From assembly GCF_002699205.1 (NCBI RefSeq), contig NZ_PABT01000009.1, forward strand, positions 62,001 to 126,000: a DNA stretch of 64,000 nt. The letters are read 5' to 3'. The notes under the pieces were generated by a model. The model was not told the origin of the DNA. It was given only the letters and a program-made list of their open reading frames with translations, and did no database searches. Position 1 is the stretch's first letter, and every line of letters starts with the position of its first letter. Below, piece after piece: positions 7,804-58,011 of the stretch. A program made the translations under genes and the position numbers. The stretch is from Allomuricauda sp. (GTDB lineage Bacteria > Bacteroidota > Bacteroidia > Flavobacteriales > Flavobacteriaceae).

Positions 7804-8088
7804 TTCTATGTGATTTTAAATTGATAATTCGTCTTTTTTTGTGAATTCACATCCATAGGACAAGACGACTTTTGAAATGGTTACAAATCCCTTAAAAAAA
7901 AAGAGGATATCTTGGAGCAATCCTTCTCCCTCCTATGTTTGATCCTTTAATGGCATTACAAAAAGGGGGGGATGATATGGAGATACTTCAAACCATAAAC
8001 GATATTTTGCCCCCTAAAACACGCGATTAAGATGACAAACATTTTGGACAAGTGGGCAAGGATACGGCGGCTTCAAATCACCCGTCCA

Positions 8089-34578: not shown

Positions 34579-36465
34579 ATGACCAAAAAAGAGAAGGAAC
34601 CCGAAAAACATATTGAACAGGCTTTGGAATTCATACTCAAAACGAAAAAAAGCCAATTTCAGAGAAGGGATTTCAAGAACGTGGACGCCCTTGTAGAGCT
34701 GGGAATAGCCAAACTCATCAATAAAGAACTGGAATTATACGAATTTGAGACAAATGCGCCACTTTTGACCAAGGCACTATATGGACTTTCCGTACAAAAG
34801 ATGGGACAACTGCCGATCGATATACCCAATGCTTTTCAAAAACTGGATGAATTCGAAGAAGTCCTGAAAAAAGAACAAGGAATTGCGCCGAATGTCATTG
34901 GATCCTACAGTACATTCTTAAGAGGGCTTAAAGGATATGTACTTTTTCAATTGGAGCAAAAGGGTGTGGATGTGGGAGGTTTTTTTGAAGGACTAATGAA
35001 GAACAAAGGACAAAGGGAAAATCAACTCTTTCTTTTTGAGGATAGCTTTTTCCGTTTTTTACCCAACTCCCGTTATCCGGCACCAAGGATATTTGCATTG
35101 TGCAAATTGGCCATGGAAAATGACGAAGCCTATTATGTGTTGGATTTTGCACGTTCTCTTCCATACAAAAATAAAGAATTGGCTCAAGAACTTTATGAGT
35201 TGAGCAAAGGACACAAACTCGCCAAAGAAAAAGGGTTTGTCACCAATTTGGCTGTTGGGCTGTACAATTCGTGCAAAGTAGAACTATTTGAGTATTATCG
35301 CACCTTGATAGCAGTAAGGCCTAATGAGGCATTTCGTTTCTTCCAGGTGATAGATAAAAAGGATAGAAAAACCTTGGAGGCCATATTGGGGATTGTCGCT
35401 TCAGATGACAGGGAAGAGAATAGAGTACGAAAAGCGTATGTTTTGAGTACACTGATAGTTCACCAAAAGGCAACCAAAAAAATCAGACAGCTGTCTTTCG
35501 ATTTGATCAAAAGTTATTTTGAAAGTGAGAATGAAGAGGTAAAACATGGTGTCCTGTGGTCCACTAACCATATTACCAATTTTGAGGAGGAGCGATTCGG
35601 TATTTTGATGGCCTATTTGAACAAAACTTCAAATTTTAAGGTCTTGACCAATTTCTTTTGGAGGTTCAAGGACCCTAAATATATGTACGGATTGCTACGG
35701 GCGTGTTACTATCAAGCATGGGGACGGAGTTCCATTAATTTTTTCAAAGAGGCAATTGGCCATTTTTGGCAGGTCAACAGGAACGCTTCGGAAAAACAGA
35801 TTTTAGCAATGTTCGACCCACAAAGGCAACTGGGACTCCTTCCCGTGGAGGTCCTTATGTGCGGGTACATCAACCCATTGCCTGTGGATTTGTTAAAACT
35901 GGACGACGAAGACCAGCAGGTAAATGCAATACGCTGCATCTGTATATTCCCCCATTCCTTCGACAGTTTATTACCCATTGTACTGAAGTTGAGGCACTCA
36001 AAATTTCCAAAGGTCAACCTATATCTAAAGGAGAGATTGGTCCAACTCATCGTTGAAGTCTATCATGAAATGTTGTTCGAATCCATAAAAAGGTTATTGG
36101 GCACAACGGCCAAGGACAAGAATTTCTTGAATGAAATGGCCAAGGCACTGGATCGATACAAGGAAATCAAGGCCCTTAAGGACTCGGTCGATGATTTGAA
36201 CCCTAGGCAAAATGAACGTGATTATATGGAACTGTTCTACTCCTTGGAACATGAACGACGGTCCATACTAATGGAAGAAATCCATCAAAGTAAGGACACC
36301 TTTATGAGCCATGCAAAAAGAAGCGTCATTGTTAGGGGAAATGCATGGAAATTGCCGGAAAAAGAGGAAATCACCCCGTTACAACGTTTTGCTTCTGGGC
36401 ATTGGATGCATGGAAATGCCGTATTGAATCCAGATTTATTTGAACTTGAACTGCGAAATATCTAA
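34579..36465 (+). CDS. Large helical-repeat protein, first gene of the graspetide-linked operon
   Basis: A 628-residue soluble protein I do not recognise. It is rich in paired helices (for example VRKAYVLSTLIVHQKATKKI and HGVLWSTNHITNFEEERFGI), suggesting HEAT-type repeats. It has no signal peptide, membrane helix or obvious catalytic motif. The next gene starts 5 bases after its stop and the rest of the operon follows with gaps of 5-20 bases. It may be a scaffold or sensor for the nuclease-like protein encoded next; this is inference from context. Confidence 0.6.
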   Translation: MTKKEKEPEKHIEQALEFILKTKKSQFQRRDFKNVDALVELGIAKLINKELELYEFETNAPLLTKALYGLSVQKMGQLPIDIPNAFQKLDEFEEVLKKEQGIAPNVIGSYSTFLRGLKGYVLFQLEQKGVDVGGFFEGLMKNKGQRENQLFLFEDSFFRFLPNSRYPAPRIFALCKLAMENDEAYYVLDFARSLPYKNKELAQELYELSKGHKLAKEKGFVTNLAVGLYNSCKVELFEYYRTLIAVRPNEAFRFFQVIDKKDRKTLEAILGIVASDDREENRVRKAYVLSTLIVHQKATKKIRQLSFDLIKSYFESENEEVKHGVLWSTNHITNFEEERFGILMAYLNKTSNFKVLTNFFWRFKDPKYMYGLLRACYYQAWGRSSINFFKEAIGHFWQVNRNASEKQILAMFDPQRQLGLLPVEVLMCGYINPLPVDLLKLDDEDQQVNAIRCICIFPHSFDSLLPIVLKLRHSKFPKVNLYLKERLVQLIVEVYHEMLFESIKRLLGTTAKDKNFLNEMAKALDRYKEIKALKDSVDDLNPRQNERDYMELFYSLEHERRSILMEEIHQSKDTFMSHAKRSVIVRGNAWKLPEKEEITPLQRFASGHWMHGNAVLNPDLFELELRNI

Positions 36466-36470
36466 GGAAC

Positions 36471-38216
36471 ATGGATATCAAACCCATCATTGTCCAAAAA
36501 TATCTGGAATCCCTTAAAGAAGATTCTGAATTGGACGCCCTGCTCCCACTATTGTTGCAGGCGATGGATTTTGAGATATTGTCCACGCCCAAGGAGTATA
36601 AAGGGTTTCCTCAATACGGAAAGGATATTGTAGCCACCGGCAAAGACGGGAGCAAACAAAAGCACCGATATTATTTTGAAATAAAAGCTGGAAATATCGA
36701 TGGAAGGAACTGGGATACAGGCCCCAATAGTGTAAGGAGTAGCCTTGCAATGACCATAGACCATGAATTTGATACGACTTACCCAAATTTTAAGGAACTT
36801 CCCATAAAGGTAGTATTGGCCTTCAATGGACTTGTCACGGGGAAAGCCCGGGGACTATTGACTGGGTTTGCCAAAAAAGAATTTACTGATAAAGGGATTG
36901 AGTTTGAGGAATGGAACATATCCAAATTAACAGAACTGTTCAATGCGAAATTGTTTGGTGCCTACCTGTTTACGGACCAAGAGAACACGCGCCTTTTCAA
37001 CAGGGTAATTGTAAACTTAAATGCCAGTGATGGAGTTTCTCAGGATTTTGTGGACTTGGTGGACACTATTTTGAACATGGAAACATGGAAAGGAAACTCC
37101 AAAAAGGTTCCTCGGAAAATAACGTTACTTTTTGAGACCCTGAACCTCATTTCATTGATACTGTATACAGAGGCAAAATCCTATAACAATCTGGATATAG
37201 CCAAGAGATACCTGACACATCTCTTACTGCGATTTTGGCATTGGATTCTTAAAAACAAGCTTGAGGGGCACACCAATGTCGTGGCCTATTTTGCAAGGCA
37301 TTATATGTTTTATCATTCCTTGCTCAGGGAATACATTAAAAGAACATTGGACATGGCCCTGCTTAAAGATGGGCTTTCCCATCATAAGGCAGGAAGATAT
37401 GATGAAGTTGGGTATACCCATAGAACTCTTGGCTATTTAAGTACGTTGTGTTATGTCCTTAAGTTTGAGAAACGTTTTTCCCCAAATTTCGAAATAGAAA
37501 GGGCCAAAAGCCTATTGATAGGTGCCATCAATGCAAATTCTGTTTCAAAGAGGGTACTTTTGGATATCCATTCTTTAGTGGTGATGGACGTAATCGATCT
37601 GTTCATTGAATTTGGGGAGCTTGAAAATGCCAAGACCTATCTCAGGCAAGTATTGGGATATATTAAGAACGGTAAGGAACTATATGGTAGGTTGCCGGAT
37701 GCCAACAATAGTCTCAATAATGTCATCAAATTTACGGTAACCGGTAAAAAGCCTATATACTATGTGGACAGTACATCACCTCTGCTGGCCTCACTGATGG
37801 AATATGTTGCTATTTTGGATATTAAGGAGGATTACGAATGGCTGCCTGATTTTGTCCAAGAGCATGATATCACTTTAGGGATTTTTGTACCCCACCATGG
37901 TATAGAATCCACCTCAAAAGACCTTATCGAGGATAAGGAAAATGATCTGGAGGAACAATTGTTCTCTAAATCCGTAAGGGATGGATACCAATCGGAAATC
38001 CGTACCAAGATATACCCAGAAGGAGAATTGGATTTTGACGGCTTTCGTAAGGACTTATTGGAGAGGGCCAAGGAATTTACCTATGAGTATAGAACGGACA
38101 AGGCCGGCTTCCCCATGCTTCGTGATTTGGCCCATCACTATTATGGGACACCCTATTTTCCCGACAGATGGCGTCCCCTGTTAAAGCTATTGAACCCAAA
38201 GGAGACAAAAGAATAA
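36471..38216 (+). CDS. PD-(D/E)XK nuclease-like protein with helical C-terminus
   Basis: A 581-residue protein. The N-terminus holds a restriction-endonuclease-like signature: FPQYGKDIVATGKDG (Gln48-x-Gly50-x-Asp52) followed by YYFEIKAG (Glu70-x-Lys72). This is the order seen in Mrr-type QxGxD...ExK nucleases. VVLAFNGLVTGKARGLL then continues the fold. From about residue 190 on it is helical and unrecognised. It has no membrane segment. Position 2 of the six-gene graspetide operon suggests that it is the effector or client of the modified peptide. Confidence 0.6.
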   Translation: MDIKPIIVQKYLESLKEDSELDALLPLLLQAMDFEILSTPKEYKGFPQYGKDIVATGKDGSKQKHRYYFEIKAGNIDGRNWDTGPNSVRSSLAMTIDHEFDTTYPNFKELPIKVVLAFNGLVTGKARGLLTGFAKKEFTDKGIEFEEWNISKLTELFNAKLFGAYLFTDQENTRLFNRVIVNLNASDGVSQDFVDLVDTILNMETWKGNSKKVPRKITLLFETLNLISLILYTEAKSYNNLDIAKRYLTHLLLRFWHWILKNKLEGHTNVVAYFARHYMFYHSLLREYIKRTLDMALLKDGLSHHKAGRYDEVGYTHRTLGYLSTLCYVLKFEKRFSPNFEIERAKSLLIGAINANSVSKRVLLDIHSLVVMDVIDLFIEFGELENAKTYLRQVLGYIKNGKELYGRLPDANNSLNNVIKFTVTGKKPIYYVDSTSPLLASLMEYVAILDIKEDYEWLPDFVQEHDITLGIFVPHHGIESTSKDLIEDKENDLEEQLFSKSVRDGYQSEIRTKIYPEGELDFDGFRKDLLERAKEFTYEYRTDKAGFPMLRDLAHHYYGTPYFPDRWRPLLKLLNPKETKE

Positions 38217-38226
38217 CTACAGAACT

Positions 38227-38733
38227 ATGGAAAAATACAACGTGGAACACTATGTAAGCCCCCATCTTACTTATATAACATTACATGACAAACTTAGGAT
38301 TGGGCAATTGATATTCGATTGCAAGAAGAAGAGGATAACCATGGTCGATACCGCCATTTTATCGGAAATTTACGAGAAGGAGAAAGATGGCAAAAAAGTG
38401 ACTATAGATGAATATAGGCCATTGTACTTAACGGATGATTGGCTGATAAAGGTATTTCAGTTTGAAGGGAAATATCTTAACACCAACAATATGACCGTCT
38501 TCACTTCACAAAGACATGGTCTTAAGGTGCACAAACGGCAAGGAAATTATTATCTTGGTTATATTCTTAGGGAAAAGATGAACATAGGGGAATGGAAAGG
38601 ATGTTCATCAAGTAAACCAGAGATACTCTTCGTAAGCGAACTGATGGATTATTGCTATCTTTTAAAAAGGGACAGTCTGAAATTTACCAAGGATGATTTA
38701 AAAAGAATCAATGAACTGATAACCATTAATTAA
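38227..38733 (+). CDS. Small unknown protein upstream of graspetide precursor
   Basis: A 168-residue soluble protein of unknown family. The segment YRPLYLTDDWLIKVFQFEG followed by a later ILFVSELMDYCYLL loosely recalls a short protein type of Bacteroidota phages and mobile elements (LTEEWLLKFGF ... ELQNLYFAL), but the match is weak. It begins 10 bases after the nuclease-like gene and ends 20 bases before the precursor gene. Confidence 0.55.
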   Translation: MEKYNVEHYVSPHLTYITLHDKLRIGQLIFDCKKKRITMVDTAILSEIYEKEKDGKKVTIDEYRPLYLTDDWLIKVFQFEGKYLNTNNMTVFTSQRHGLKVHKRQGNYYLGYILREKMNIGEWKGCSSSKPEILFVSELMDYCYLLKRDSLKFTKDDLKRINELITIN

Positions 38734-38753: not shown

Positions 38754-39095
38754 ATGAGACCAATAACCTTTAATTTTTTGGAGAAACCCGAAGAGGTTGG
38801 CCTGGATGAATCTATCCTAAGCTATGATGAGGAATTGAATCTTTCCATCGATAAGAATTCCGGCCTGCCAGCGTTTGATGTACTATCTATGGATACGAGC
38901 ACAGGGACTAAGGATTATGTAGAAGTATCTGATACTGATGACACTCTGAATCTGTCCTACATGGACACAGCAACACGCACCAATACACAAATGGAGTCTA
39001 CGGATTTGGACAACAATGTTCACTACCTCATTCAGATGATGGACACTTCAACAGCCACAAGGACTTATGACGAAGCCGCTGATTCTGACGCCTAA
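38754..39095 (+). CDS. Graspetide (omega-ester peptide) precursor with three core repeats
   Basis: A 113-residue acidic peptide with no signal sequence. The leader (1-45) contains FNFLEKPEE, comparable to the FLE-type helix that recruits ATP-grasp ligases in microviridin leaders. The rest holds three 17-residue repeats: 46-62 MDTSTGTKDYVEVSDTD, 70-86 MDTATRTNTQMESTDLD and 96-112 MDTSTATRTYDEAADSD. The consensus is TxTxT then ExxDxD, giving three hydroxyl donors and three acid acceptors per repeat. An ATP-grasp ligase gene starts 5 bases downstream. Each repeat could carry up to three ester links. Confidence 0.88.
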   Translation: MRPITFNFLEKPEEVGLDESILSYDEELNLSIDKNSGLPAFDVLSMDTSTGTKDYVEVSDTDDTLNLSYMDTATRTNTQMESTDLDNNVHYLIQMMDTSTATRTYDEAADSDA

Positions 39096-39100: not shown

Positions 39101-40015
39101 ATGATTCTTGTAATAACCCATAGAACTGATTATACTGCTGATTTCGTAATAAATAAATTAAACCAAAGGAATATTCCGTACCAAAGATTGAACTGTGAGG
39201 ACTTGATTTTCCAGAACTATGCCTTTGAAATCAACCATGACTTCGATTTCTACTTCCAAGGTTGCAAAACCTTCACATCGGGTTGGTTCAGAAGAACAAA
39301 GCTCCCCCAAATCCAGGGATTGACCGAAGAAGAAAGATTGTATTTATTAGGGGAGTACGATGCGCTTATTCAAAATATAGTTTCATCGATCGATTGTCAA
39401 TGGTTGAGTCAACCGAGACACATCTATTTTGCAGAAAACAAAACTGTACAGTTAAGGAAGGCCAAAGAGTTGGGGTTTAATATCCCCCCGACCTTGATTA
39501 CGAACAAAAAAGAAATGGTAAAATCCTTTTATGATAGGTATAATGGAAATATTATCATTAAGCCAATTTCCAGAACACGAATTGACTATCGTGAACAACC
39601 AGGTTTTATCTTCACAAATGTGGTTGGCGAAAATGTTATTAAAAACCTTGATTCGTTTGATATGAATCCCTGTATTCTTCAGAAAAACATAGAAAAGAAG
39701 TATGAAATTCGGGTCACTGTAGTGAAAGACAAGGTTTTTGCCGCAGCTGTTGATAGCCAAGAAGACGAGGACACCAAGGTGGATTGGAGACGGAAAAAAT
39801 TGAAATTCAGGGAAACGAGGCTACCTAAAACCATTGAGCAGCAGTGTGTACAGGTAGTGAAGGAATGTAATTTGGGATTTGGAGCCATAGATATGATAAA
39901 GACAATGGAAAATGAGTATTTTTTTCTAGAACTGAACCCTAATGGTCAATGGGCATGGATTGAATTGCAAACAGGCCAAAAAATATCCGAGGCAATTATA
40001 AGTGGTCTGACTTAA
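39101..40015 (+). CDS. MvdC/MvdD-type ATP-grasp graspetide ligase
   Basis: A 304-residue ATP-grasp enzyme of the microviridin ligase class. The N-terminal pre-ATP-grasp region includes TSGWFRRTKLPQI. The ATP-binding part has NIIIKPISRTRI and ILQKNIEKKYEIRVTVV. The metal-binding end is FLELNPNGQWAWIE, very close to the NPNGQW signature of MvdC/D. It should activate Asp/Glu side chains and join them to Thr/Ser hydroxyls (omega-esters) or Lys (amides). The precursor core has Thr-rich donors and almost no Lys, so esters are expected. Confidence 0.9.
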   Translation: MILVITHRTDYTADFVINKLNQRNIPYQRLNCEDLIFQNYAFEINHDFDFYFQGCKTFTSGWFRRTKLPQIQGLTEEERLYLLGEYDALIQNIVSSIDCQWLSQPRHIYFAENKTVQLRKAKELGFNIPPTLITNKKEMVKSFYDRYNGNIIIKPISRTRIDYREQPGFIFTNVVGENVIKNLDSFDMNPCILQKNIEKKYEIRVTVVKDKVFAAAVDSQEDEDTKVDWRRKKLKFRETRLPKTIEQQCVQVVKECNLGFGAIDMIKTMENEYFFLELNPNGQWAWIELQTGQKISEAIISGLT

Positions 40016-40023: not shown

Positions 40024-40761
40024 ATGAGTTTTTTCAAATTTCTTTTCTTACCCCGGCAATTGGAATCAAAAAAACCCTTTGATTATGATAAAAATGATTA
40101 TCGGAATCTAAGGAGAGATCAATTGGAGTTACATAAATCCTATCTAAAAGAGATGGAAACCGAGGAGAATTCAAGGTTGGTAATGATTGAAAATAAGACC
40201 GCACAATTGGTTTCGCAAACAGGGCTTGTATTTGCACTACTGAGTTTGTTCGTTCCCTTCATCGTTGAAACCATTCTGAATGCACATATTATTTTTCGGA
40301 TTGTTTTCATAATGTTGTTAATCATGTGCTTTCTGTGCTACATTTTAGCAATAATCAACTCGTTAAAAAACTTCAATGTAAAGAAGTTTAATTATGGGTA
40401 TAAGTCCCCAATGACCATATTGAACCACCAATCTTTGAGTGAAAAAAAATTCATGCAGATGGAAATCAAGGATGCGTTGTATTGCATCAACAATAACATC
40501 GAAATGAACAACCGAAAGGCAACACATCTGATAAGGGGATATCATTTTTTCAAATTTGGTATCGTGTCAACCGCGGTACTGGTAGTTTTTCTCTGTGCAT
40601 CGCTTCTGTTCATCGCCAGTAAAGAAAGTGAAAATGGCACCAAACAACCCATGGAAACACAAATTAAAAAAGAGTTTTTAGATAATACAACGAACAGCGA
40701 TTTAGAAAAAGTCCATGATTCAATCAAAATAGATACAATGTCCAAGGCTAAAATCGATTGA
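40024..40761 (+). CDS. Three-helix membrane protein, last gene of graspetide operon
   Basis: A 245-residue protein with membrane helices at about 66-84, 90-112 and 178-198. A charged N-terminal coiled segment (LHKSYLKEMETEENSRLVMI) comes first, and a polar tail of about 45 residues ends the protein. The layout recalls SLATT/S-4TM-type membrane effectors of defence systems, though I cannot assign it. It has no ABC transporter or peptidase motif, so it is not a typical RiPP exporter. It might instead confer immunity or form a pore. Confidence 0.55.
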   Translation: MSFFKFLFLPRQLESKKPFDYDKNDYRNLRRDQLELHKSYLKEMETEENSRLVMIENKTAQLVSQTGLVFALLSLFVPFIVETILNAHIIFRIVFIMLLIMCFLCYILAIINSLKNFNVKKFNYGYKSPMTILNHQSLSEKKFMQMEIKDALYCINNNIEMNNRKATHLIRGYHFFKFGIVSTAVLVVFLCASLLFIASKESENGTKQPMETQIKKEFLDNTTNSDLEKVHDSIKIDTMSKAKID

Positions 40762-42801: not shown

Positions 42802-43392
42802 ATGGCAAAACCAAGGATTTTTATAAGTTCTACCTGCTATGACTTGAATGACATACGAAGTGAGCTCACAGATTTCTTGCAGAAATATAATTTCGAGGTT
42901 CTCAATTCCCAATTGAAAAATTTTGGCGTTACTCCGGGAAAACATTCCCACACGGCCTGTTTGGAGCAAGTAGAGAATGCCGATTTTTTCATTGTAATTA
43001 TTGGTGGGCGTAGAGGCGGGACCTTCATAGGCTCGGAAAAGTCAATTACAAACGAAGAATATTCCCTAGCAGTCAAGAAAGGTGTTCCAATCATGGTGTT
43101 TGTCAACCAAAGAGTAAATGAGATTTTACCACTATACAAGAAAAACGCAACTTTGGATTTTTCAGATGTGGTCGAGGATAAAAGAGTGTTCCATTTCATA
43201 GAATATATCAAGGCATCTTCAGAAGACAATTGGATTTTTCAGTTTCAGAATGTTAACGATATAAAGGAAACGATTATAGCACAATTTGCATACTACCTCT
43301 TTCTTTTTCCCAGAATTGTAAAAAATCCACCAGCAAAGAAAAAAGTGTGGACTCATCAAAGCTTGCCTTTGTTCAGTTTCCATCCAATATGA
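42802..43392 (+). CDS. DUF4062 domain protein, 5' part of a frame-split gene
   Basis: The first 180 residues form a DUF4062 domain: RIFISSTCYDLNDIRSEL at the start, then ENADFFIVIIGGRRGGTF and YSLAVKKGVPIMVFVNQ. DUF4062 is a TIR-like/nucleoside-deoxyribosyltransferase-like fold often placed at the front of NTP-dependent defence proteins. After AKKK the zero frame runs only 13 odd residues to a stop. The -1 frame continues 170 residues with good coding bias, so the true protein is probably about 350 residues long. The switch point is the A6 run at 43339-43344. Confidence 0.7.
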   Translation: MAKPRIFISSTCYDLNDIRSELTDFLQKYNFEVLNSQLKNFGVTPGKHSHTACLEQVENADFFIVIIGGRRGGTFIGSEKSITNEEYSLAVKKGVPIMVFVNQRVNEILPLYKKNATLDFSDVVEDKRVFHFIEYIKASSEDNWIFQFQNVNDIKETIIAQFAYYLFLFPRIVKNPPAKKKVWTHQSLPLFSFHPI

Positions 43393-44418: not shown

Positions 44419-45438
44419 TTAAGTATCGAGTTCTTTGCTTTTCAGATTGAACGTGGTCACTTTATGAAGGTCAACCCTTGTACAATCCATAAGGTCTTGG
44501 TTAAAAATGACGACATTCTTACCGGAGGGGTGCAAAGAACTGGCAAACCGTATGCCACTGGCTCCAGTGTAGATTCGAATAAACTCGCAAACATACTGAG
44601 TTGGGATATATTCTATCTCCGAATCATATCGCCTCATAGGCTTGGACAAATCACGACTGACCCTTTCCCGCAATAACTTGGCCATAATCGTCTCCCGAAC
44701 CATTTCTGGCTGGAACAGAGGGGTGTCCTCTGTAAAATCCACAATATTGACGAATTCGGTTTCCGCTTTGAGCTGGAATGTTCCTATACTTAGTTCATCC
44801 AAATAGGATGCCCGTACTTCATAAAGCACCGTTTTCGGATTATCACATAAATACAAGTAGGGTATACCCAATGGGTTGGCCCTACCCCCTTTTGCCAAAT
44901 CGCGTGTAGGGGCATACATTTTATCCTCGGGATAGGCTTGGTTCCCACTTTGGTGATGGACCCTGGCCCTATATAGCAAAGTGTCCTGTGTCAATCTATA
45001 TTGTGTATTGAAGAATCCATCCCAACCCAATTCAAGCAGTTGGTCCAGATTGGATAAAAATCGATGGGACCATTTCAACTCTTCCTTAAAGATCTCCCAA
45101 TATTCATGGTTGTTGTTTATTTCTTGGATATAATCAACAGGGCTACTGGCATTATGTATGTCGGTATCGATTTTTGGTAAAATATGGTTTAAGATATTCT
45201 CGGCCACTTGATGATTTGAAAAAAAACTCCAATTACCCTGGATTTTGTTTTTGATGCTATCCCCATCTTCGACAGGTCTATAATTATCGATGAGTTCCTG
45301 GAAAAAATCCATGAGCTCGTTGATGTCCATGATAGGCTGATTCGTGGCGTTACAAATAGCACAATCCCCTTTAGAGTTCGAGGCGGAAATAAAGGCCTTT
45401 AATTCGGTATCGATAAAACAACTGGGGCAAACTTCCAT
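44419..45438 (-). CDS. RES domain NAD+-phosphorylase-like protein with zinc-ribbon N-terminus
   Basis: A 339-residue protein. An N-terminal zinc ribbon (CPSC at 4-7, CAIC at 26-29) precedes a HEPN/RES-associated helical region. The C-terminal RES domain has LLYRARVHHQSG, GRANPLGIPYLYLCDN and LYEVRASYLDELSIG, giving the Arg and Glu positions of the NAD+ site. RES enzymes deplete NAD+ as toxins in toxin-antitoxin and defence systems. It begins 3 bases after the sce7725-like gene in a three-gene operon. No Xre antitoxin typical of RES-Xre pairs is adjacent. Confidence 0.8.
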   Translation of the reverse strand: MEVCPSCFIDTELKAFISASNSKGDCAICNATNQPIMDINELMDFFQELIDNYRPVEDGDSIKNKIQGNWSFFSNHQVAENILNHILPKIDTDIHNASSPVDYIQEINNNHEYWEIFKEELKWSHRFLSNLDQLLELGWDGFFNTQYRLTQDTLLYRARVHHQSGNQAYPEDKMYAPTRDLAKGGRANPLGIPYLYLCDNPKTVLYEVRASYLDELSIGTFQLKAETEFVNIVDFTEDTPLFQPEMVRETIMAKLLRERVSRDLSKPMRRYDSEIEYIPTQYVCEFIRIYTGASGIRFASSLHPSGKNVVIFNQDLMDCTRVDLHKVTTFNLKSKELDT

Positions 45439-45441
45439 GGA

Positions 45442-46374
45442 TCAATGATGGCTAAGATAATCTTGAAGGATAAGAAGGTGGTTCTTGATACTGATTTTCT
45501 TTACGGTTCCCAGCCCAGGATAATGTTGACGGTCGTAGTAATCCTCCAATTCTGCAATCGCTGCGTTGTTGAATCCGTTAGCCCTACAAAACCCTACGGC
45601 TTTTTCAGCAGCTTCTGCGAATTTCCCTTGAACGTTGGCAATGGAATCATTGGTGTCCGAGGTAAAATGCCTGATCCAAATTTGGTTGTCGGCTTTCATA
45701 TAGGTCAAGTGGATAACCACCGCCCTAGGAGTGCTCCCACTATCACTGAATTCACTGGGAAGCACCGTATAATCAGAAAAACCACTAAAGCTTTCATTGG
45801 CATAATGAAGATGTTCCTCGGAAAATCGATGCTCCTGAATATCAAGAAAATCACTGTTCCGTTGTTGCTTCTCGAAAAAATCATCCAAACGGATATAGGT
45901 TTTGTCCAAGCCCCTAACATAACGATCCAAAGCCCGGTTTCTTCCTGGGTCTTCCACAACAATAAACTGGACGGTAGCGGATTCCACTAGCCTCCTGAAC
46001 TCAGGATCATCAGGGTTAATATCATTTTGACAAATGACCATACAATCCCCCAATCCGTAATCTGTTATTGCCGTTAAAATGTAGTCGGCATTGTTTCTGT
46101 AATAAAATGCTCTTCCTATCGAGAACTGACCCTGCTGGAGGTATTCCAAAAAAACGTCACGATCCCCGGTCACCTCCCCGACCAAAGGGTTCACAATGAG
46201 AAATGCTTGTTGTCGGGTAGTAGCGAAAGTTGAAAGTGCAATGTTCAAATTGTTGAACGATTCTTTGACCGGTTCCAATATGGGCACAATGGCACCTTGG
46301 GAAGTGTTTGTATTGGCCAAATCCCGTAATGCGATCAATTCAAATTGGCGTGCCCTAAGTAGTGGATAATACAT
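45442..46374 (-). CDS. sce7725 family (phage beta protein-like) protein
   Basis: A 310-residue protein that opens YYPLLRARQFELIALRDLAN and IVPILEPVKESF, the pattern of sce7725/T4 beta-protein-like proteins. IRLDDFFEKQQRNSDFLD and AVVIHLTYMKADNQIWIRHF fit later parts of the same family. The biochemical role is unknown. Its 5' end overlaps the sce7726-type gene by 20 bases and it ends 3 bases before the RES gene. Confidence 0.75.
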   Translation of the reverse strand: MYYPLLRARQFELIALRDLANTNTSQGAIVPILEPVKESFNNLNIALSTFATTRQQAFLIVNPLVGEVTGDRDVFLEYLQQGQFSIGRAFYYRNNADYILTAITDYGLGDCMVICQNDINPDDPEFRRLVESATVQFIVVEDPGRNRALDRYVRGLDKTYIRLDDFFEKQQRNSDFLDIQEHRFSEEHLHYANESFSGFSDYTVLPSEFSDSGSTPRAVVIHLTYMKADNQIWIRHFTSDTNDSIANVQGKFAEAAEKAVGFCRANGFNNAAIAELEDYYDRQHYPGLGTVKKISIKNHLLILQDYLSHH

Positions 46375-47245
46375 GGTTCGGTTTGATTGGTGATTTAAGA
46401 TGATCCATCAATGCTTTCCTTTCCGCCGTGGACAACTTCAGGGCAAGGCTCATTTGATTGAATTCCCTATAATGTTTCTTATTGAGGGCGATGGGCTTTT
46501 GCCTGGCCTTCATAATAGAAATGAAATAGGAATTGAGTTCATCATTTGGGATCTGTAAGATCAATTCCCTACATTTCTCAAATTGGTTGAAACTGGTCAT
46601 TTTTGGCAAGCTTCCAAAATGTTTTTTGACCAGATTTTTGTATTCGTGCGTGTGCAGTACTTTCATGATGGTATTTTTGTCCACCTCACTATTGGGAATG
46701 GCCCTACGGTAAACCTGAAACTTTTCAATGCTATCGGGTTGGTACAAAATAATGCCGATATCCTTTCCGAAATGCTCATATTGACCCAATCGTGATTCTG
46801 AAAGCACCAAATAGATTTCATTAAATGCTCTTTGGTAATTTATCAATTGGAAGTCCAAACGTTTGGCCGAGTCCATCTCAGTCTTTATTTCAAAGACCTT
46901 GGAAGTTCCATTGAACATAGCAAGGTCGGCAACCGCATTTCCTACCCTGAATTCCGAGAAAACCTGTGAATCACCGGTGGCGACCTCCTCAATCAAACAT
47001 TCATTCAAGAAACTGTTCTTAAATATATATTCGTTTTGGTAATGGCCTTCAAGAATTTTATAAACGTACCTAAGATATTCTACAAACGTGGTATTGTCCA
47101 TGGTCAACCAATCTTCATCATACCTTTTTATTTTATGGTAAATGGAGGTAAAATCATTTTTGAACCATGGTTTGACCTGATTTCTGGAAAACAAGGAGGA
47201 ATAATCCCGTAATTGGTTGATGGAAAATGTGGAAGTACTTGCCAT
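46355..47245 (-). CDS. sce7726 family PD-(D/E)XK-like protein
   Basis: A 296-residue protein with FRVGNAVADLAMFNGTSKVF (Asp107) then FEIKTEMDSAKRL (Glu119-x-Lys121), a PD-(D/E)XK core. The RLDFQLINYQRAFNEIYLVL that follows is typical of sce7726 proteins. It is first in the sce7726-sce7725-RES operon. A nuclease-like protein, a beta-protein-like protein and an NAD+-consuming enzyme together look like an anti-phage module, though no such activity is shown here. Confidence 0.78.
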   Translation of the reverse strand: MASTSTFSINQLRDYSSLFSRNQVKPWFKNDFTSIYHKIKRYDEDWLTMDNTTFVEYLRYVYKILEGHYQNEYIFKNSFLNECLIEEVATGDSQVFSEFRVGNAVADLAMFNGTSKVFEIKTEMDSAKRLDFQLINYQRAFNEIYLVLSESRLGQYEHFGKDIGIILYQPDSIEKFQVYRRAIPNSEVDKNTIMKVLHTHEYKNLVKKHFGSLPKMTSFNQFEKCRELILQIPNDELNSYFISIMKARQKPIALNKKHYREFNQMSLALKLSTAERKALMDHLKSPIKPNHVLSTT

Positions 47246-47616: not shown

Positions 47617-49218
47617 TTACTTTCCTCCTTGTTGACCAAATATCGACCTCACCTCACGGTGCACCTTCAAATAGTGCCGCTCCAAATCCCCTTCCTTGAT
47701 TTCAAGGGGCTTGGGCAACCCTTTGGGAATTTCAGGTCTGGGAAACCGTACTTTTCGGTCCTTCCCGTCCGCAAAGACCACGAACTCCCCTTGTTTCAAC
47801 CGAAAGAAGACCTCTGCCCTACGTTTGGACACTTCTTTCTCCCCTTCTGTAATGCGTCGTTCCAAGTTAAGTCCCGAACTCTTGCTCACGCTGCGGGTGG
47901 GTATTTTTACCAACTCAAAAAAACGTTCGTAATATCGAGCCGTATCGGGATCATTCACCTTTCCAAAGAACTGGTAGGACAGATTGGACAAAATGGCCTT
48001 GCTGGCCTTCTCCCCGTACATCATATCGTTTTGGACCTTATCCTGTAGCACATATACGCTCACAATATCGTAGCTCCGCAGGGTGGCCGGGATACGGTGC
48101 ATGTTCAACAAGCGTAAGGTGGAGGCCTCTTCCAACAACATAAAGGAGGGCTTTCGGTTGCGTTGGCTCATTTGTTTAGAGATGGTATGTATGATGGTGG
48201 CAATCACAGGAGATAGGGAGGCATCTTTTTGTGGGTTGTTCACCAAGGCAATGACCGAGGGATTCTCGCCATTATTGATGTCCAAGGGAATCTCATCGGC
48301 GGACAGTACCATAAAGATCTTTCGGGTACTGATCTTCTTGATGGCATTGGCCAAGGTACTCATGACCCCTGCAGTCTGCCGCTCCGATCCCACCCCGCTG
48401 ATAAAGGCGTCTGCCATGGCGCGTGAGGTAAGATTCTCCCTTAAAAACTTGATCAGGCTCTTGGTTCCCAATTGTTGGTAGAGGGCCATCACATGGGGCA
48501 GCGTACAAAAATCGGGGTATTCGGTCTTGAGCCGCCATATCAGTCCGCTGATCAAGCCCTCCGCAGCATCCTTAAAAAAACGGGAGGTACTGTTCTCGTC
48601 GGAGTCCCGATGTTCCATCAGGTTTTCCAACAATACCCGGGATACCTCATGGACACTCTCCTCATCGGGCAGGTAACGGGGTGCGATGGGATTCACCCGA
48701 TTGTAGATCGGCCCAAAGGACACGATGTGAAAGGGCACCTTCTGGTCTTTCCAAAGAGGACAGGCCATTTCCGTGATCTCAAAATCCTTGTAATCATGGA
48801 TGACGCCTGAGAAACCCTCTTTTTTAAAATGTTCCAAAAACCCATAGATGACACTTTCAGTCTTCCCACTTCCAGCAGAGGCCATAACGGACACGCCCCT
48901 GCGGATGTTCCCCAGGACCAGGGATTTGCCCTTGACCCTTAATTTAACCTCGAACACCTTGGAAGGTCTAGTGGAATCCTTATAGTAATCCACCAGACCA
49001 TAAATGACAGTATGCACAAAAAACAAGGGGAGCCATAGACCCATTGACTGTTTCAAAAGTAAGTCCCAGCCGAATATCCCTCCCATGGCGGTTGCCACCA
49101 TAAGCAGGATACCGAGATAATACAGAAAGCCATACTTGAGGTATCGATTGGCCACAAAGGAGATTCCTCCCCCAACGATCAAACCGATTATACATTCCAT
49201 CCATCCTAAATTTTCCAT
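47617..49218 (-). CDS. Type IV secretion coupling ATPase (VirD4/TraG-like, MobC)
   Basis: A 533-residue ATPase with two N-terminal membrane segments (about 8-50 and 61-76). Walker A is at ASAGSGKTES (113-122), GVIHDYKDFE follows, and Walker B is SFMLLEEAST. The family links the relaxosome to the conjugation pore. It is the last gene of the BfmA-relaxase-coupling protein operon (12-base gap). No pore-forming tra genes are in the window, so transfer would need a helper system. Confidence 0.88.
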   Translation of the reverse strand: MENLGWMECIIGLIVGGGISFVANRYLKYGFLYYLGILLMVATAMGGIFGWDLLLKQSMGLWLPLFFVHTVIYGLVDYYKDSTRPSKVFEVKLRVKGKSLVLGNIRRGVSVMASAGSGKTESVIYGFLEHFKKEGFSGVIHDYKDFEITEMACPLWKDQKVPFHIVSFGPIYNRVNPIAPRYLPDEESVHEVSRVLLENLMEHRDSDENSTSRFFKDAAEGLISGLIWRLKTEYPDFCTLPHVMALYQQLGTKSLIKFLRENLTSRAMADAFISGVGSERQTAGVMSTLANAIKKISTRKIFMVLSADEIPLDINNGENPSVIALVNNPQKDASLSPVIATIIHTISKQMSQRNRKPSFMLLEEASTLRLLNMHRIPATLRSYDIVSVYVLQDKVQNDMMYGEKASKAILSNLSYQFFGKVNDPDTARYYERFFELVKIPTRSVSKSSGLNLERRITEGEKEVSKRRAEVFFRLKQGEFVVFADGKDRKVRFPRPEIPKGLPKPLEIKEGDLERHYLKVHREVRSIFGQQGGK

Positions 49219-49230
49219 AGCAACACTGTT

Positions 49231-50250
49231 TTAAATTCCGATCGATCCAGATTCCAAGGCCTTTCCGATCCCTTTTTTGAGCTGCATCATCGCCTTATAG
49301 GCCAATTGGGCCTTGTTGGTGGGGATGGTCGGCACCTGGATACCCGCCTTGAAGAGCAGCTGCTTGGCCGCTTGCCGTTCATTCGTTGGCAATCCCAATA
49401 ATGCGGAAAAGAAGCGTTTGGGATCCTTGTCCAAGAGATTACGGGCATGGTAAGTCTCCACAAAATTTCTTTTGTACCCGAACTGTTTGTCAAAAGTCTT
49501 TTCCGCTGCCCGATAGAACTTATCCCGATCAAAGCCCTGTTTGACGGTCTGCCCATGGAGCGTGGTCTCGGAAGTTCGGAACTTGGACCCCGGGGAAAGG
49601 CTATGGGTATTGGTCCTGTCCATTCGGCTGACAATAATGTGGATATGGCTCTGGTGGCCTTCCTTGGCCATACCGGGTACGATCCGCTTCCCGTTCAATT
49701 GGTGTGGGGCCTCCCTTTCAAGGGCATTGATCTGTTCCCGGAGCTTGGCAATTTCCCCTTGCTCCCGTCCTTCTTGGATGGCCCTGACCCGGTGTTGCAG
49801 TTCCAAGATCTTGCTGGCATGGGCCTGGTTTTCCTTGACCTCACGATCCTTTTCGGAATAGGTGCGTTCCCGTTCCAATTTAGCAAAATAGAGGATTTCC
49901 TTGACGGTCACTTCGCGGTCCCGGTAAAAGGAGGCCGCATAGGCCTGCATGACCTGCCGAGCATATTGCCTCAGTTTCTCGGGGTCGTTTCCGATATGCT
50001 GGAGTTCCCTTTGGGAGGGACTCACCACCAGGGAATAGAACTTGGGCTCCCGTTTCTTGAGCTTTGCCGTATTGGCGTCGATCTCGGCAATGACCCGCTC
50101 CGCATCGATGTTGTTCTCTTCCTGGTTAAAATACCCCTCCTGCTGTTCCGGTTCCTTTCCTTCGTTCTCCTTTCCGAGATAATTGACAAAATCCCGGGCA
50201 CTGCCCTTAAAATTGTCCCCCAGTTGTTGGCGTGTGATGGCGATGTACAT
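49231..50250 (-). CDS. Relaxase/mobilisation protein (MobB, DUF5712-like)
   Basis: A 339-residue relaxase. HQSHIHIIVS at 199-208 supplies the metal-binding His cluster, and TRQQLGDNFKGSARDFVNYL at the start matches DUF5712 mobilisation proteins. The catalytic Tyr is probably among the early Tyr residues (Tyr2 or Tyr24); I cannot decide which. It nicks oriT and pilots the strand. A long helical insert (about 115-185) separates the two parts. It begins 2 bases after the accessory protein gene. Confidence 0.82.
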   Translation of the reverse strand: MYIAITRQQLGDNFKGSARDFVNYLGKENEGKEPEQQEGYFNQEENNIDAERVIAEIDANTAKLKKREPKFYSLVVSPSQRELQHIGNDPEKLRQYARQVMQAYAASFYRDREVTVKEILYFAKLERERTYSEKDREVKENQAHASKILELQHRVRAIQEGREQGEIAKLREQINALEREAPHQLNGKRIVPGMAKEGHQSHIHIIVSRMDRTNTHSLSPGSKFRTSETTLHGQTVKQGFDRDKFYRAAEKTFDKQFGYKRNFVETYHARNLLDKDPKRFFSALLGLPTNERQAAKQLLFKAGIQVPTIPTNKAQLAYKAMMQLKKGIGKALESGSIGI

Positions 50251-53815: not shown

Positions 53816-56797
53816 TTATTTGGCCATCAGTGCACCAGTTCCTACCTGCCTCGGGTCGGGTTTCAAGGGTTGCTTGATGGTGGCAACTACCTCCAGGCTA
53901 TAATGCCCGAACTCTTCGGTAACCGTTCCGTGGCAGAGATAGATGCCCTTTCCATGAATGGGCGTGGATACCATCGTTTGGGGAAAGTGCACACAATCAA
54001 AAAAGTGACCTTCCAGATCGAGCATGGTGGTAAAGCGCATGGTATCCCCTTTGGATGTGGTATTCAATCGGGTATGGACCATGGACCCATAGATCCATAT
54101 CTTTTGGTTGACATGGGCCTCAAAATCACCGGCGGTCAACCTACTCTTCACCTTGCCCTCCATGAGTTCATAATACCCACATAACGGAAAACCCAGAAGT
54201 TCCATTTGGTCATAGGCATCCTCAACAGGATGGGAAGGTAGATGCGGCAATGTAAAATGCCTGTGGTTGGGTTTGAACAGAAGTTTCTGGACCGTATCCT
54301 TTCGATGGGCCTTGGTCTTGAACACGGCCTGCCAAAGTATTTGTTTCTTGGGCACCCCAAAGACACGAAAGGCATCGATACGCACCAAGATGGTCAACTG
54401 TTCGATGGCAATGGGAACCCTATCAATAAAATCATCAAAATCCCTGAACTTCCCATAGAGCTGCCTTTCGTTCAAAATGCGTTGGATGACCAAACGTTCC
54501 AAACTCCGGAGCTGTCCCAGTCCCAAATAGATGTGCTTGCCATAGATTGCATTGACATGGTCACTACGGTTGATACAGGGCGGATGGATAATGCCTCCCC
54601 ACATCTTGGTCTCGTGCACATAGAGTTCCGTATCATAGAACCCTCCCCCATTGTTGAGCACGGCCACCATAAACTCCAAGGGGAAATAACATTTCAGGTA
54701 AAGGCTCTGGTAGCTTTCCACGGCATAGGAAGCCGAATGCCCCTTGGCAAAGGCATAGCCCGCAAAACTCTCGATCTGTTCCCAGACCATTTGGGTCAGG
54801 GCGGCATCATGCCCCCTCTGCTTACAGTTTTCAAAAAACTTCAATTTCACTGCCTGGAATTCCTCCCGGGAGCGGAATTTTCCGCTCATCCCCCTTCGCA
54901 GGACATCGGCCTCCCCTAGGTCCAGTCCTGCAAAGAAGTGGGCCACTTTCAGCACATCCTCTTGGTAGACCATGATCCCATGGGTCTCTGGCATAATCTC
55001 CAACAGAATGGGATTGGCCTCCTTGCGGCGTTCCGGTTCCCTTTCCCTACGGATGTATTCATCCTTCATCCCTGAGGAGGACACCCCGGGACGGATCACG
55101 GAACTGGCCGCCACCAGTCCCAAATAGTCGTGGGTCCGCAGTTTCTTCATCAGCCCCCGCATGGCAGGGGATTCCACATAGTAGGCCCCTATCGCCCTCC
55201 CTTGGCTCAACAGCCCGTTGATGTTGGCATCCCGTTTCATCGCCTCCACGCTTTTGATGTCCCAAAGCACGGCATCGGGTTGGTTGCCCTTGATGACCTC
55301 CACCGCCTCCTTGATCTTGGCCAATCCCCGTTGTCCCAAAATATCGAACTTGAACAGGCCCACATCCTCGGCAATGATCATGTCGAACTGCACCGTAGGG
55401 AAGCCTTTCGGTGGCAAGGTCGTGGCCGAATAACAATGTTCGGAACGGTCCAGGATCAGTATCCCCGAGGAATGCACACTGATATAATTGGGCATCCCAT
55501 GGATATAGGTAGCGTATTTCAGCACCAATCGGGACAGTTCATCCAAGGTTCCCTGTTCGTACCGTCCTGCACTGAGCTTATCGATCTCCTCGGTGGGCAG
55601 GCCGAACACCTTGCACAGCTCCCGAACGGCGGCCCGGTACTTAAAGGTGTTGTAGGTGCCCAAAAGGGCGACATGCTCGAAGCGTTCAAAAATATAGGCC
55701 GTGACATCGTCCCGGTCCCAGGTGGAAAAATCAATGTCAAAATCCGGGGGCGAGGCCCGAAAGGGGTTGATGAACCGTTCGAAATACAGGTCCAGTTCAA
55801 TGGGATCCACATCGGTGATCCCGATCAGGTAGGCCACCAGACTGTTGGCCCCACTTCCCCTCCCCACGTATGGGTATCCCTTGGACCTCGCATAGGAGAT
55901 GATATCGTGGTTGATCAAAAAGTAGGACACAAAATCCAGCTCCTCGATGGTCTTCAGTTCCCTGAACATACGTTCCCTGACCTTTTCCGTGGGATGGACA
56001 TACCGTTTGGACAACCCTTCCATGGCCAGTTCCCGCAACCGCAGCACATCATCCTCCTTGGAGTCCAGATAACGGGACTGGTTCTGGGAGACCCGCTCAC
56101 TTCCAAACCCAAAGGCAATGGAACAGGAATCCATCAACCGCTGGGTGTTTTCCCAGATATGGGGCACATCAACCAAAGCTTTTTTCAGTTCGTCCATGGG
56201 CCGCAGGGTATCGGTGGCCTTGCCCTCCTCGGATTGGGACAACTTGCTCAGCAGCGTGTTCAAGCCTATGGCCCGAAGCAATCGATGCGTATTGAAATCC
56301 TTTTTGCTGCGAAAGCTCACGGGCTGCAATAGCACCAATCTGTCGGTATAATCCCGATACCGGGAGAACCGTAGTTTCCGGAGCTCTTCAATCGAGACCC
56401 CAATATATTCATAGGCCTTAAAATCCGTCCGTTCCTCTTCCTGTACCTTCTCGAAGGGGTAGATGACATGGACATTCCCAAATACTGGGGCCACGGAGGG
56501 AATCGGCGTTCCCTTATGAAGATGCTCGGAAAGAAAGGCGTTGATCTCGCGAAACCCCTCATTGTTCTGGGCCAGGCCCACGAACTCCTGCACGTTCCCG
56601 TTCCGAAAATCGATCCCCAGAATGGGACGTATGCCCTGTTCCTTGGCCAAGCGCACAAAGTTCATCCCGGCCGAGCTGTTGTTGATATCGGTCAGGGCCA
56701 GCACTTCCACCCCATGGGAACGGGCCAGGTCCAAAAGCTCCGTTTCGGAGAGCACCCCGTAATTCAGGGAATAGTATGTATGGCAGTTCAGGTACAT
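53816..56797 (-). CDS. DNA polymerase III alpha-like (DnaE/ImuC-type) polymerase
   Basis: A 993-residue C-family polymerase. The N-terminal PHP domain opens with MYLNCHTYYSLNYG. The palm has YVGRGSGANSLVAYLIGITD, DPIELDLYFERFINP and the catalytic ASPPDFDIDFS. The fingers and a terminal OB-like region follow. It is shorter than the replicative DnaE (about 1,400 in this group). Its start is immediately adjacent to a Y-family polymerase gene. This matches the damage-tolerant dnaE2/imuC type, here carried on a mobile element. Confidence 0.88.
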   Translation of the reverse strand: MYLNCHTYYSLNYGVLSETELLDLARSHGVEVLALTDINNSSAGMNFVRLAKEQGIRPILGIDFRNGNVQEFVGLAQNNEGFREINAFLSEHLHKGTPIPSVAPVFGNVHVIYPFEKVQEEERTDFKAYEYIGVSIEELRKLRFSRYRDYTDRLVLLQPVSFRSKKDFNTHRLLRAIGLNTLLSKLSQSEEGKATDTLRPMDELKKALVDVPHIWENTQRLMDSCSIAFGFGSERVSQNQSRYLDSKEDDVLRLRELAMEGLSKRYVHPTEKVRERMFRELKTIEELDFVSYFLINHDIISYARSKGYPYVGRGSGANSLVAYLIGITDVDPIELDLYFERFINPFRASPPDFDIDFSTWDRDDVTAYIFERFEHVALLGTYNTFKYRAAVRELCKVFGLPTEEIDKLSAGRYEQGTLDELSRLVLKYATYIHGMPNYISVHSSGILILDRSEHCYSATTLPPKGFPTVQFDMIIAEDVGLFKFDILGQRGLAKIKEAVEVIKGNQPDAVLWDIKSVEAMKRDANINGLLSQGRAIGAYYVESPAMRGLMKKLRTHDYLGLVAASSVIRPGVSSSGMKDEYIRREREPERRKEANPILLEIMPETHGIMVYQEDVLKVAHFFAGLDLGEADVLRRGMSGKFRSREEFQAVKLKFFENCKQRGHDAALTQMVWEQIESFAGYAFAKGHSASYAVESYQSLYLKCYFPLEFMVAVLNNGGGFYDTELYVHETKMWGGIIHPPCINRSDHVNAIYGKHIYLGLGQLRSLERLVIQRILNERQLYGKFRDFDDFIDRVPIAIEQLTILVRIDAFRVFGVPKKQILWQAVFKTKAHRKDTVQKLLFKPNHRHFTLPHLPSHPVEDAYDQMELLGFPLCGYYELMEGKVKSRLTAGDFEAHVNQKIWIYGSMVHTRLNTTSKGDTMRFTTMLDLEGHFFDCVHFPQTMVSTPIHGKGIYLCHGTVTEEFGHYSLEVVATIKQPLKPDPRQVGTGALMAK

Positions 56798-58011
56798 TAT
56801 TGCTGTCTATGGGCCAATAAAATGGGTGGTTGTCCGTCAAAGGGATTGCCTCCCCTTCCTATGCTATGGGCACCCATGGCCGAGGCCCGCATCAAACTGG
56901 ATTCCCCAAAGCGGTTCCGTACCCGGTCCATGGCCTGGTAGAGGTTGAGCAGTTTTTCATCATCGGCGAACAGGTCGATCTGATAATGCCCACCAACGAT
57001 ATGGCTGTAGTTGACCCCCACGAGTCGGATGAGCATCCTCCGGTCATAGAGGGAAGTAAATAGTTCCTTTACCAAGGGCACTAAAATGTGGTCCGCAGAC
57101 GTATAGGGAATCCGTTTCTGCTTGGTATAGGTCTTGAAATCACTGTACCGGATCTTGACGCCCACACAGCCCGTCATCTTGTTGGCCCGGCGCAGTTGAT
57201 AGGCCAGGTTCTCCGCCATGGCGAACAAAGTGGTCTCCAATTTGACCATATCGGTGGTATCCTTCCCATAGGTCCGTTCCGTGGATATGGACTTTCGTTC
57301 ATGAAATGGGACCAAGGGGGAATTGTCCAGCCCCTGTGCCCGCATCCAGATGGTCCGCCCGTGCAACCCAAAAGCACTTTCCAATAGTTCCAAGGGCAGT
57401 TCCTGTACCGTCCGGATGGTGGTCACCCCCATATTGGACAGCAGCCCGTAGGTCTTCTCCCCCACCGAAGGCAGTTTACGGATGTGCAAAGGGGCCAGAA
57501 ATTCCCTTTCCAGTCCAAGGTCGATTTTCATCTGGTTGTTGGGCTTGGCCTCCCCAGTGGCCACTTTGGAGACCACCTTGTTCCGGGACAGTCCAAAGGA
57601 AATGGGCAATCCGGTCTCTTTCAAGATCCGTTGCCGCATTTCCGAGGCGTACTTATAGCAGCCAAAAAAGCGGTCCATCCCCGATAGGTCGGCATAAAAC
57701 TCATCCACACTGGCCTTTTCAAAGACCGGGACACTCTCCTTGATGACATCGGTCACAGTATCGGAAAACTTCATATAGGTCCCCGCATTGCCCTTGATGA
57801 CCGTGGCCTCCGGACACAATCTTCGGGCTACCTTCATGGACATCCCCGAGTGCACCCCAAAGCGCCGGGTCTCATAACTACAGGCCGCGACCACCCCACG
57901 GTCCCCCAACCCACCGACCAAGAGGGGCCGCTTCATCAGACGGCTGTCCAGCAGCCGCTCACAAGAGACAAAAAAAGTGTCAAGATCGAGATGGAGAATG
58001 GTGGGCTTCAT
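56797..58011 (-). CDS. Y-family DNA polymerase (DinB/UmuC type)
   Basis: A 404-residue translesion polymerase with HLDLDTFFVSCERL at the start, AACSYETRRFGVHSGMSMKV, the active-site KASVDEFYADLSGMD and FGLSRNKVVSKVATGEAKPN. A helix-hairpin-helix region (KLPSVGEKTYGLLSNMGVTT) and a little-finger domain follow. It copies past damaged bases. It is first in the operon with the DnaE-like gene (1-base overlap) and has a clear Bacteroidota promoter upstream. An HMCES gene diverges from it. Confidence 0.9.
   Translation of the reverse strand: MKPTILHLDLDTFFVSCERLLDSRLMKRPLLVGGLGDRGVVAACSYETRRFGVHSGMSMKVARRLCPEATVIKGNAGTYMKFSDTVTDVIKESVPVFEKASVDEFYADLSGMDRFFGCYKYASEMRQRILKETGLPISFGLSRNKVVSKVATGEAKPNNQMKIDLGLEREFLAPLHIRKLPSVGEKTYGLLSNMGVTTIRTVQELPLELLESAFGLHGRTIWMRAQGLDNSPLVPFHERKSISTERTYGKDTTDMVKLETTLFAMAENLAYQLRRANKMTGCVGVKIRYSDFKTYTKQKRIPYTSADHILVPLVKELFTSLYDRRMLIRLVGVNYSHIVGGHYQIDLFADDEKLLNLYQAMDRVRNRFGESSLMRASAMGAHSIGRGGNPFDGQPPILLAHRQQ

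Follow-up and report, generated by a model that had tools for sequence, protein, structure and literature searches.

What does the short, repetitive reading frame at positions 38,754 to 39,095 encode, and what might its product do in the cell that carries it? The DNA studied comes from Allomuricauda sp. (GCF_002699205.1, contig NZ_PABT01000009.1, positions 62,001 to 126,000 of the forward strand), and we refer to the whole stretch of 64,000 nt as the window. Because of its homologues and of the ligase gene adjacent to it, the frame is very probably the precursor gene of a multi-core graspetide. In window coordinates, the frame, its parts and the genes around it are:

34579..36465, + strand: OloA of Olokun, neighbouring defence gene (PADLOC OloA, 5.1e-56)
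36471..38216, + strand: OloB of Olokun, neighbouring defence gene (PADLOC OloB, 3.8e-133)
38227..38733, + strand: 168-aa protein, whose gene immediately precedes that of the precursor in the flavobacterial branch (open reading frame)
38754..39095, + strand: predicted multi-core graspetide precursor, 113 aa (open reading frame; homologues with the same leader and 3-4 cores)
38754..38888, + strand: leader, residues 1-45, with a putative boundary
38889..38939, + strand: core 1, residues 46-62, MDTSTGTKDYVEVSDTD (translation of the frame, core pattern)
38961..39011, + strand: core 2, residues 70-86, MDTATRTNTQMESTDLD (translation of the frame, core pattern)
39039..39089, + strand: core 3, residues 96-112, MDTSTATRTYDEAADSD (translation of the frame, core pattern)
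39101..40015, + strand: ATP-grasp ligase, MvdC/MvdD-like graspetide synthetase, 304 aa (NCBIfam; profile against solved AMdnB)
40024..40761, + strand: membrane protein, 245 aa, remotely PycTM-like (profiles; AlphaFold models)

The first-pass annotation had described three units of the form M-D-T-[SA]-T-x-T-x4-E-x2-D-x-D at residues 46-62, 70-86 and 96-112, separated by linkers of 7 and 9 residues, and the translated frame contains them exactly so. Each 17-residue unit carries Thr at 3, 5 and 7 and Glu, Asp and Asp at 12, 15 and 17. The pattern T.T.T.{4}E..D.D matched the precursor three times; among 20,000 residue shuffles, 10 gave at least one match and none gave three, with the pattern having been picked post hoc from the sequence, so that homologues are the better test. 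The codons at the ring positions differ among the three units, and the units are therefore not fresh DNA copies. The precursor showed no match in Pfam, NCBIfam or PADLOC at the limits used.

The ligase gene starts 5 bases after the precursor and the membrane gene 8 bases after the ligase. In NCBIfam, the ligase matched TIGR04187 at 5e-63 (213 bits, cut-off 350), TIGR04185 (MvdC) at 2.7e-61 and MvdD at 4.9e-57, all under the curated cut-offs, which makes this an assignment at the family level only. Against solved structures, the ligase profile scored highest with AMdnB (199 bits, 1.1e-57), followed by 5ig8 and 5ig9 (193 and 185 bits) and CdnC (182 bits), and was distant from 7drm (49 bits), which we take to be PsnB of plesiocin. 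The clade of the window's ligase (14 rows) had support of 100/98 in the ligase tree. A single clade of all 24 membrane-linked ligases gave a p-AU of 0.35, a value that neither rejects such a clade nor establishes it. Two marks of a graspetide locus were found, an MvdC/MvdD-type ligase adjacent to the precursor and a leader and core with conserved donors and acceptors.

Among 395 genomes sampled from the class, a single close ligase was found, with 52% identity and in a locus with the same three genes. A collection of species genomes scanned with that pair yielded ten loci, 47-96% identical, whose named hosts were Allomuricauda, Croceitalea, Flavihumibacter, Flavobacterium, Mucilaginibacter and Dyadobacter, the others being bins that included one Ignavibacteriales. 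The precursor profile was matched in 2 of 395 phylum genomes and 5 of 71 genus genomes (own genome counted), and in these samples the module is rare and patchy. In G247 the order-level search matched the precursor at E 0.008, with 26% identity and two stops, which we attribute to chance. The order precursor, ligase, membrane protein was kept in all 16 related loci, the window included, and the genes of the operon are tightly packed, with overlaps or gaps of at most 20 bases. The conserved genes of the module, flanks aside, include no exporter or protease. Interruptions were seen in the ligase of L034 (a stop, 8001-8915) and in the membrane genes of L037 (8924-9594) and L039 (8924-9667). These may reflect natural decay or sequence error; L034 and L037 are metagenome assemblies and L039 is a named isolate. 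The 168-aa protein upstream has no Pfam family, and a similar gene, judged by eye, occupies its place in L033/L106, L034, L107/L111, L108 and L113.

An alignment of homologous precursors had been proposed as a check on the repeats, and it placed conservation mainly at the Thr, Asp and Glu positions. Among 12 precursors, aligned without reference to the pattern, 15 of the 18 Thr and acid positions were invariant. T52 and T74 were at least 90% conserved without being invariant, and E57 fell below that level, with Asp in L037 and a degenerate first core in L040. In the leader, F8, D18, Y24, N29, L30, P39 and A40 were invariant. A looser pattern gave 46 cores, 38 of them unique, from 15 readable precursors; this pattern itself fixes T3, D15 and D17, and the degenerate first slot of L040 lies outside the 46. 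L112 contributed no cores to the count, its precursor being the one read in L108. In the 29 unique cores of the x4 class, position 5 was Thr and position 12 Glu in 28 each, and positions 4, 6, 8-11 and 13 were highly variable. The stretch between Thr7 and Glu12 was x3 instead of x4 in 9 of the 38 unique cores. Although this stretch varies, the T-x-T-x-T and E-x2-D-x-D spacings on either side of it are constant, which fits what a nested hairpin would allow. The homologues and the adjacent graspetide-type ligase together uphold the reading of a multi-core precursor whose units each have three donors and three acceptors.

The same cores limit another part of the first-pass annotation, which had taken the Thr and acid sites plus Met-Asp as the fixed positions and the Met-Asp as a possible recognition or cleavage point. 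The Thr and acid sites are kept in homologues, but Met-Asp varies outside the window: in the 29 unique x4 cores the first residue was Met in 19, Leu in 9 and Thr in 1, and the second was Asp in 24, Gly in 3 and Glu in 2. We therefore rejected an invariant Met-Asp as a cleavage site.

The slots themselves also differ from one another. At non-ring positions, cores of one slot compared between proteins had an identity of 0.35, against 0.16 for cores of unlike slots between proteins and 0.19 within a protein, and none of 5,000 permutations of the slot labels reached the observed value. The slot test covered 11 of the 16 precursors (L033, L040, L108/L112, L111 and L114 were left out) and used three of the four cores of L035. 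The apparent age and distinctness of the three slots argue for one three-domain molecule rather than equal beads for release, and shared descent alone can maintain part of this distinctness. The beads on a string first described, taken as interchangeable units for release, are not supported, given the distinct slots and the lack of a protease or exporter among the conserved genes.

Among the closest known systems are graspetides of the microviridin and chryseoviridin type (MdnB/MdnC, CdnC, AMdnB), whose ligases belong to the same family as the window's. Microviridin (group 1) cores have the form TxKxPSDxx[ED][ED], and this motif was absent from the window precursor and the 12 aligned precursors. 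Plesiocin (group 2) cores have the form TTxxxxEE; the window precursor contains no such motif, in line with the low ligase score for 7drm against AMdnB. Unlike the microviridin type, the module has a T-x-T-x-T-x4-E-x2-D-x-D core, a different leader, a single ligase and a co-encoded membrane protein, and no exporter among its conserved genes. The microviridin leader motif PFFARFL (PMC8939145, in excerpt) was likewise absent from the window precursor and the 12 aligned precursors. An attempt to reach thuringinin and plesiocin loci through solved sequences was dropped, 7drm having ranked last or been absent.

Several features of the module have precedents. Repeated units occur also in AMdnA and chryseoviridin (PMC12291112, in excerpt), and tandem cores with Thr, Glu and Asp, as here, in thuringinin and OEP groups 3, 5 and 6 and in plesiocin (PMC8939145, in excerpt). 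OEP6-1 has three nested cross-links, an arrangement that the present cores may share (PMC12291112, in excerpt), and thuringinin loci also encode an uncharacterised membrane protein (PMC8939145, in excerpt). Repeat precursors have further been described for the new graspetide groups 34 and 35 (PMC13097080, in excerpt), and these groups and the published group lists may already include the present precursor family. Novelty is limited for these reasons, since tandem-core graspetides and nested three-ester cores are already known (PMC12291112, in excerpt).

AlphaFold models of the membrane protein (pLDDT 72.9 and 74.3) have a long helix that would run into TM1, then TM2, and a second long helix into TM3; the placement of the helices in the membrane was taken from hydropathy, with about three predicted TM helices. 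The Bacteroidota and the phage/plasmid membrane families proved homologous (hhalign 95.4% and 95.9%; reversed controls at most 0.6%), and R51, K58 and K165 were invariant in a 14-row alignment of the membrane family. Pfam gave the family no name where tested, the window protein having no match above a family cut-off. For PycTM (PF18967), neither the window protein nor 10 relatives had a match at E<=0.1, and the gathering score was not reached. The joined membrane family, however, matched PycTM at 52.5% (E 1.4e-4; reversed controls 0.7 and 0.3%), whereas each family alone reached only 5.6 and 6.2%. The joined profile, run against sets of 26 and 295 genomes, gave three non-family matches below 1e-4 (G021, G080 and G142), all of them PycTM by Pfam. 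Further matches were G787 at 0.0024 and two near 0.8, one of these PycTM; one of the scans scored up to 9 candidates per genome, and G021 was absent from its matches.

The layout in sequence is also PycTM-like, with a helix carrying [DE]-x-K before TM1, then TM2, a linker and a helix into TM3, as in the Pycsar effector domain. The family differs from PycTM in staying under the PF18967 threshold, in having no pyrimidine cyclase among the neighbours that were noticed and in adjoining graspetide genes in the loci seen, and we treat the remote likeness as a lead, not as membership. No member was matched at E<=1 in 20 control graspetide regions of the class. With the 2023 PADLOC library, the precursor, the ligase and the membrane protein had no clear match, the only one being CorA-like at 0.0055 for the membrane protein. 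A fold search with the membrane model found no PDB or BFVD match at E<=0.001. The best VIA-align row was NINJ1 (Z 11.4 over 110 residues), in a range that is common for helical bundles and uninformative, and the only PDB match by sequence was 5v10 at E 0.32.

We propose that the three genes form a compact intracellular conflict module, most likely directed against phage, in which a ring-locked precursor works with a membrane effector; we put this reading just short of an even chance. In a first step, well supported by homology, the ATP-grasp ligase would recognise the leader and join Thr to Glu and Asp side chains in each core. The product would be one chain with three hairpin-like tricyclic domains and up to nine water losses, for which we favour the nested pairs T7-E12, T5-D15 and T3-D17. 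In a second step the modified precursor would stay uncut and unexported and act whole in its producer cell, as suggested by the lack of a conserved protease or transporter, the distinct cores and the tight packing of the genes. In a third step the peptide, locked by its rings, would restrain or switch its partner, the co-encoded membrane protein, which would act as a membrane-damaging effector. Infection would upset this balance, and the cell would stop or die before phage release. Control of the membrane protein by the peptide is suggested by the constant gene linkage and the PycTM-like architecture. The module would move as cargo of mobile elements, plasmids and phages.

A role in defence is inferred from genomic setting and precedent. 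In Streptomyces, anti-phage lanthipeptides are encoded in defence islands and act inside the producer (PMC12360287, in excerpt); they differ in having thioether instead of ester chemistry and other enzymes. Other RiPP classes have been found co-expressed with nearby defence genes (PMC11118758, in excerpt). For Panoptes (OptS/OptE) it has been proposed that a membrane effector is kept restrained by a small molecule, a logic like the one suggested here (PMC12657218, in excerpt); there the signal is a cyclic nucleotide and not a peptide, and we claim no homology. We consider it possible but doubtful that the whole amounts to an unnamed, widespread immune module. In it, a multi-domain graspetide locked by its rings would, as a covalent knot inside the cell, regulate a PycTM-like effector that damages membranes; the peptide would replace the cyclic nucleotides of Pycsar and Panoptes, and mobile elements, plasmids and phages would carry the module from Flavobacteria to Leptospira and Proteobacteria. 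If this were true, ester-knotted peptides would join the signals that control bacterial immune effectors. To our knowledge, the natural roles of most graspetides are not known. Because this compact module recurs on phages, plasmids and a mobile element, always accompanied by one membrane family and with no export gene among its own, one graspetide role becomes directly testable. Within the open-access literature covered here, we found no study that treats a graspetide as a defence system or describes this membrane family, the nearest being PMC11118758 and PMC13097080.

Most serious among the other explanations, though unlikely, is that the three cores are secreted as a bacteriocin or as an inhibitor of proteases; the membrane protein would then provide self-immunity or export, and a housekeeping protease would remove the leader. 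Microviridins and plesiocin are indeed protease inhibitors (PMC13097080, in excerpt), and transport has been suggested for the membrane protein 'cluster 18' of thuringinin loci, most of which are without known exporters (Makarova et al., PMC8939145, in excerpt). However, the conserved unit has no exporter or peptidase of its own, the membrane protein, with its few predicted TM helices, resembles PycTM rather than a transporter, and every core slot is distinct.

The three-gene module is also found outside the Bacteroidota. Tblastn and profile scans showed the same layout in Leptospira phage LE1, in a gut phage contig (an unverified record) and in IMG/VR contigs, as well as on plasmids of P. aeruginosa, Sinorhizobium, Croceicoccus and Agrobacterium. 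In ten phage, viral-contig or plasmid loci a membrane-family gene follows such a ligase, and nine of them also had a precursor with two or more tandem cores, L044 being without. Their cores read T-[KR]-T-x4-E-x-D-D or close to that. A precursor profile built from Bacteroidota only found five of the phage and plasmid precursors (L061, L058, L047/L057, L104 and L043) at E 6e-8 to 0.003, values that refer to a small database of reading frames from the collected loci. The window ligase used alone found no relative in viral contigs; the alignment-based searches did. Herpetosiphon and a Ligilactobacillus plasmid have related ligases, but the stretches covered there contained no member of the membrane family. 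L043 carries the operon with integrase/repressor-like genes on one side and tail genes on the other; L045 and L046 have tail or baseplate genes nearby, and in phage LE1 the operon is flanked by two HTH genes, beyond which there is a ParB-like gene. Two viral-contig ligase loci that are more distant had weak membrane-family matches (L044:8969-9619, 1.5e-6; L052:5269-6375, 0.0038), with no tandem cores seen.

In the window the operon has a G+C content of 37.3%, against 43.6% for the window as a whole. A type IV coupling protein and a DUF5712 protein, the latter presumably relaxase-like, are encoded at 47617-50250, and L111 has a similar pair. On one side L111 shares with the window a SusC-like gene, an HTH gene and a gene for 162 aa, whose counterpart in the window (164 aa) is 85% identical, and on the other side the coupling protein and DUF5712 gene; FRG-domain and KAP/PifA-like genes stand where the window has Olokun. 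We read L111 as resembling the window's element, with the defence genes as exchangeable cargo of one hotspot. The pair of coupling protein and DUF5712 protein marks a mobile element, adjacent to the SusC-like gene, whose cargo varies.

PADLOC matches at E<=1e-10 were present in the flanks of 10 of the 14 loci examined (the window, L034, L035, L036, L038, L041, L042, L111, L113 and L115), several of them known pairs (Olokun, a type II restriction pair and PDC-M68A/B). In L037, L039, L040 and L114 no match was seen in the flanks, only some proteins having been scanned singly. We compared 98 neighbour proteins from 14 of the 16 loci (L033 and L112 were omitted as near copies of the window and L111) with 103 proteins from 13 of 20 graspetide loci of the same class, which served as controls. 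PADLOC models were matched at E<=1e-30 by at least 12 of the 98, compared with 5 to 7 of the 103 controls (Fisher p 0.08 to 0.23, a test on protein counts in which proteins of one locus are not independent). Of the neighbour proteins, 26 were scanned singly (6 + 20, picked by eye), with 17 matches at E<=1e-10 and 11 at E<=1e-30, and pooled SoFic, PsyrA and ShosA matches add at least one protein to the 11. Among the controls, 4 members matched mad3 at E<=1e-30, and each of three PDC-S05 models was matched by one member; under the looser limit of E<=1e-10, up to 18 control proteins are compatible with the pooled output. The pooled count of PADLOC families, 90 for neighbours and 15 for controls, makes the contrast look larger than it is, since many models can be matched by a single protein. 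The contrast with the control loci is suggestive and statistically not secure, and this weakness slightly lowered our estimate for the defence reading.

The same settings would suit a toxin-antitoxin or addiction module, in which the modified peptide restrains a membrane toxin and the benefit is retention of the plasmid, element or prophage, not phage defence. The tight three-gene unit and its presence on plasmids, phages and an element with a coupling protein speak for it, but some loci have no clear mobile genes in view, defence systems are its neighbours, and L034 has a membrane gene beside an interrupted ligase; we rate it as rather improbable. An intact membrane gene with an interrupted ligase would be unexpected in any strict model of a restrained toxin, our own included, and L037 shows the reverse.

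There is only a small chance that the ligase needs the membrane protein as a scaffold or partner in biosynthesis and that the peptide has some other role; against it counts that for many such ligases the leader alone suffices. Graspetides that depend on a partner protein do exist, rosaritide being one (PMC13097080, in excerpt), and one title in a reference list mentions a membrane protein scaffold for microviridin; the rosaritide partner, however, is described as SurA/PPIase-like and not as a small TM protein. That the repeats are unmodified, an acidic Thr-rich protein beside an ATP-grasp gene by chance, is hardly credible: the ring chemistry is predicted from sequence, but conservation is concentrated at donors and acceptors and linkage to the ligase is constant across many genera.

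Other genes near the operon deserve mention. Membrane proteins that match PADLOC PifA are encoded at L034:4377-6776, L111:6573-9224 (KAP_NTPase by Pfam) and L113:10787-13429; in these three flavobacterial loci they lie upstream of the 168-aa gene and the operon, and a functional link is possible. Within the window's cargo region, 42802-43392 encodes a DUF4062 protein (1.7e-18) with weak TIR similarity. The minus strand of 44419-47245 has three genes, for a RES-domain protein with weak HEPN/RES similarity at its N-terminus and for two proteins with no Pfam match, which we assume to be sce7726/sce7725-like; the set is perhaps another conflict cassette of the same element. At 53816-58011 the window has what we take to be a DnaE-like polymerase and an ImuB/DinB-like gene, presumably a mutasome-like set.
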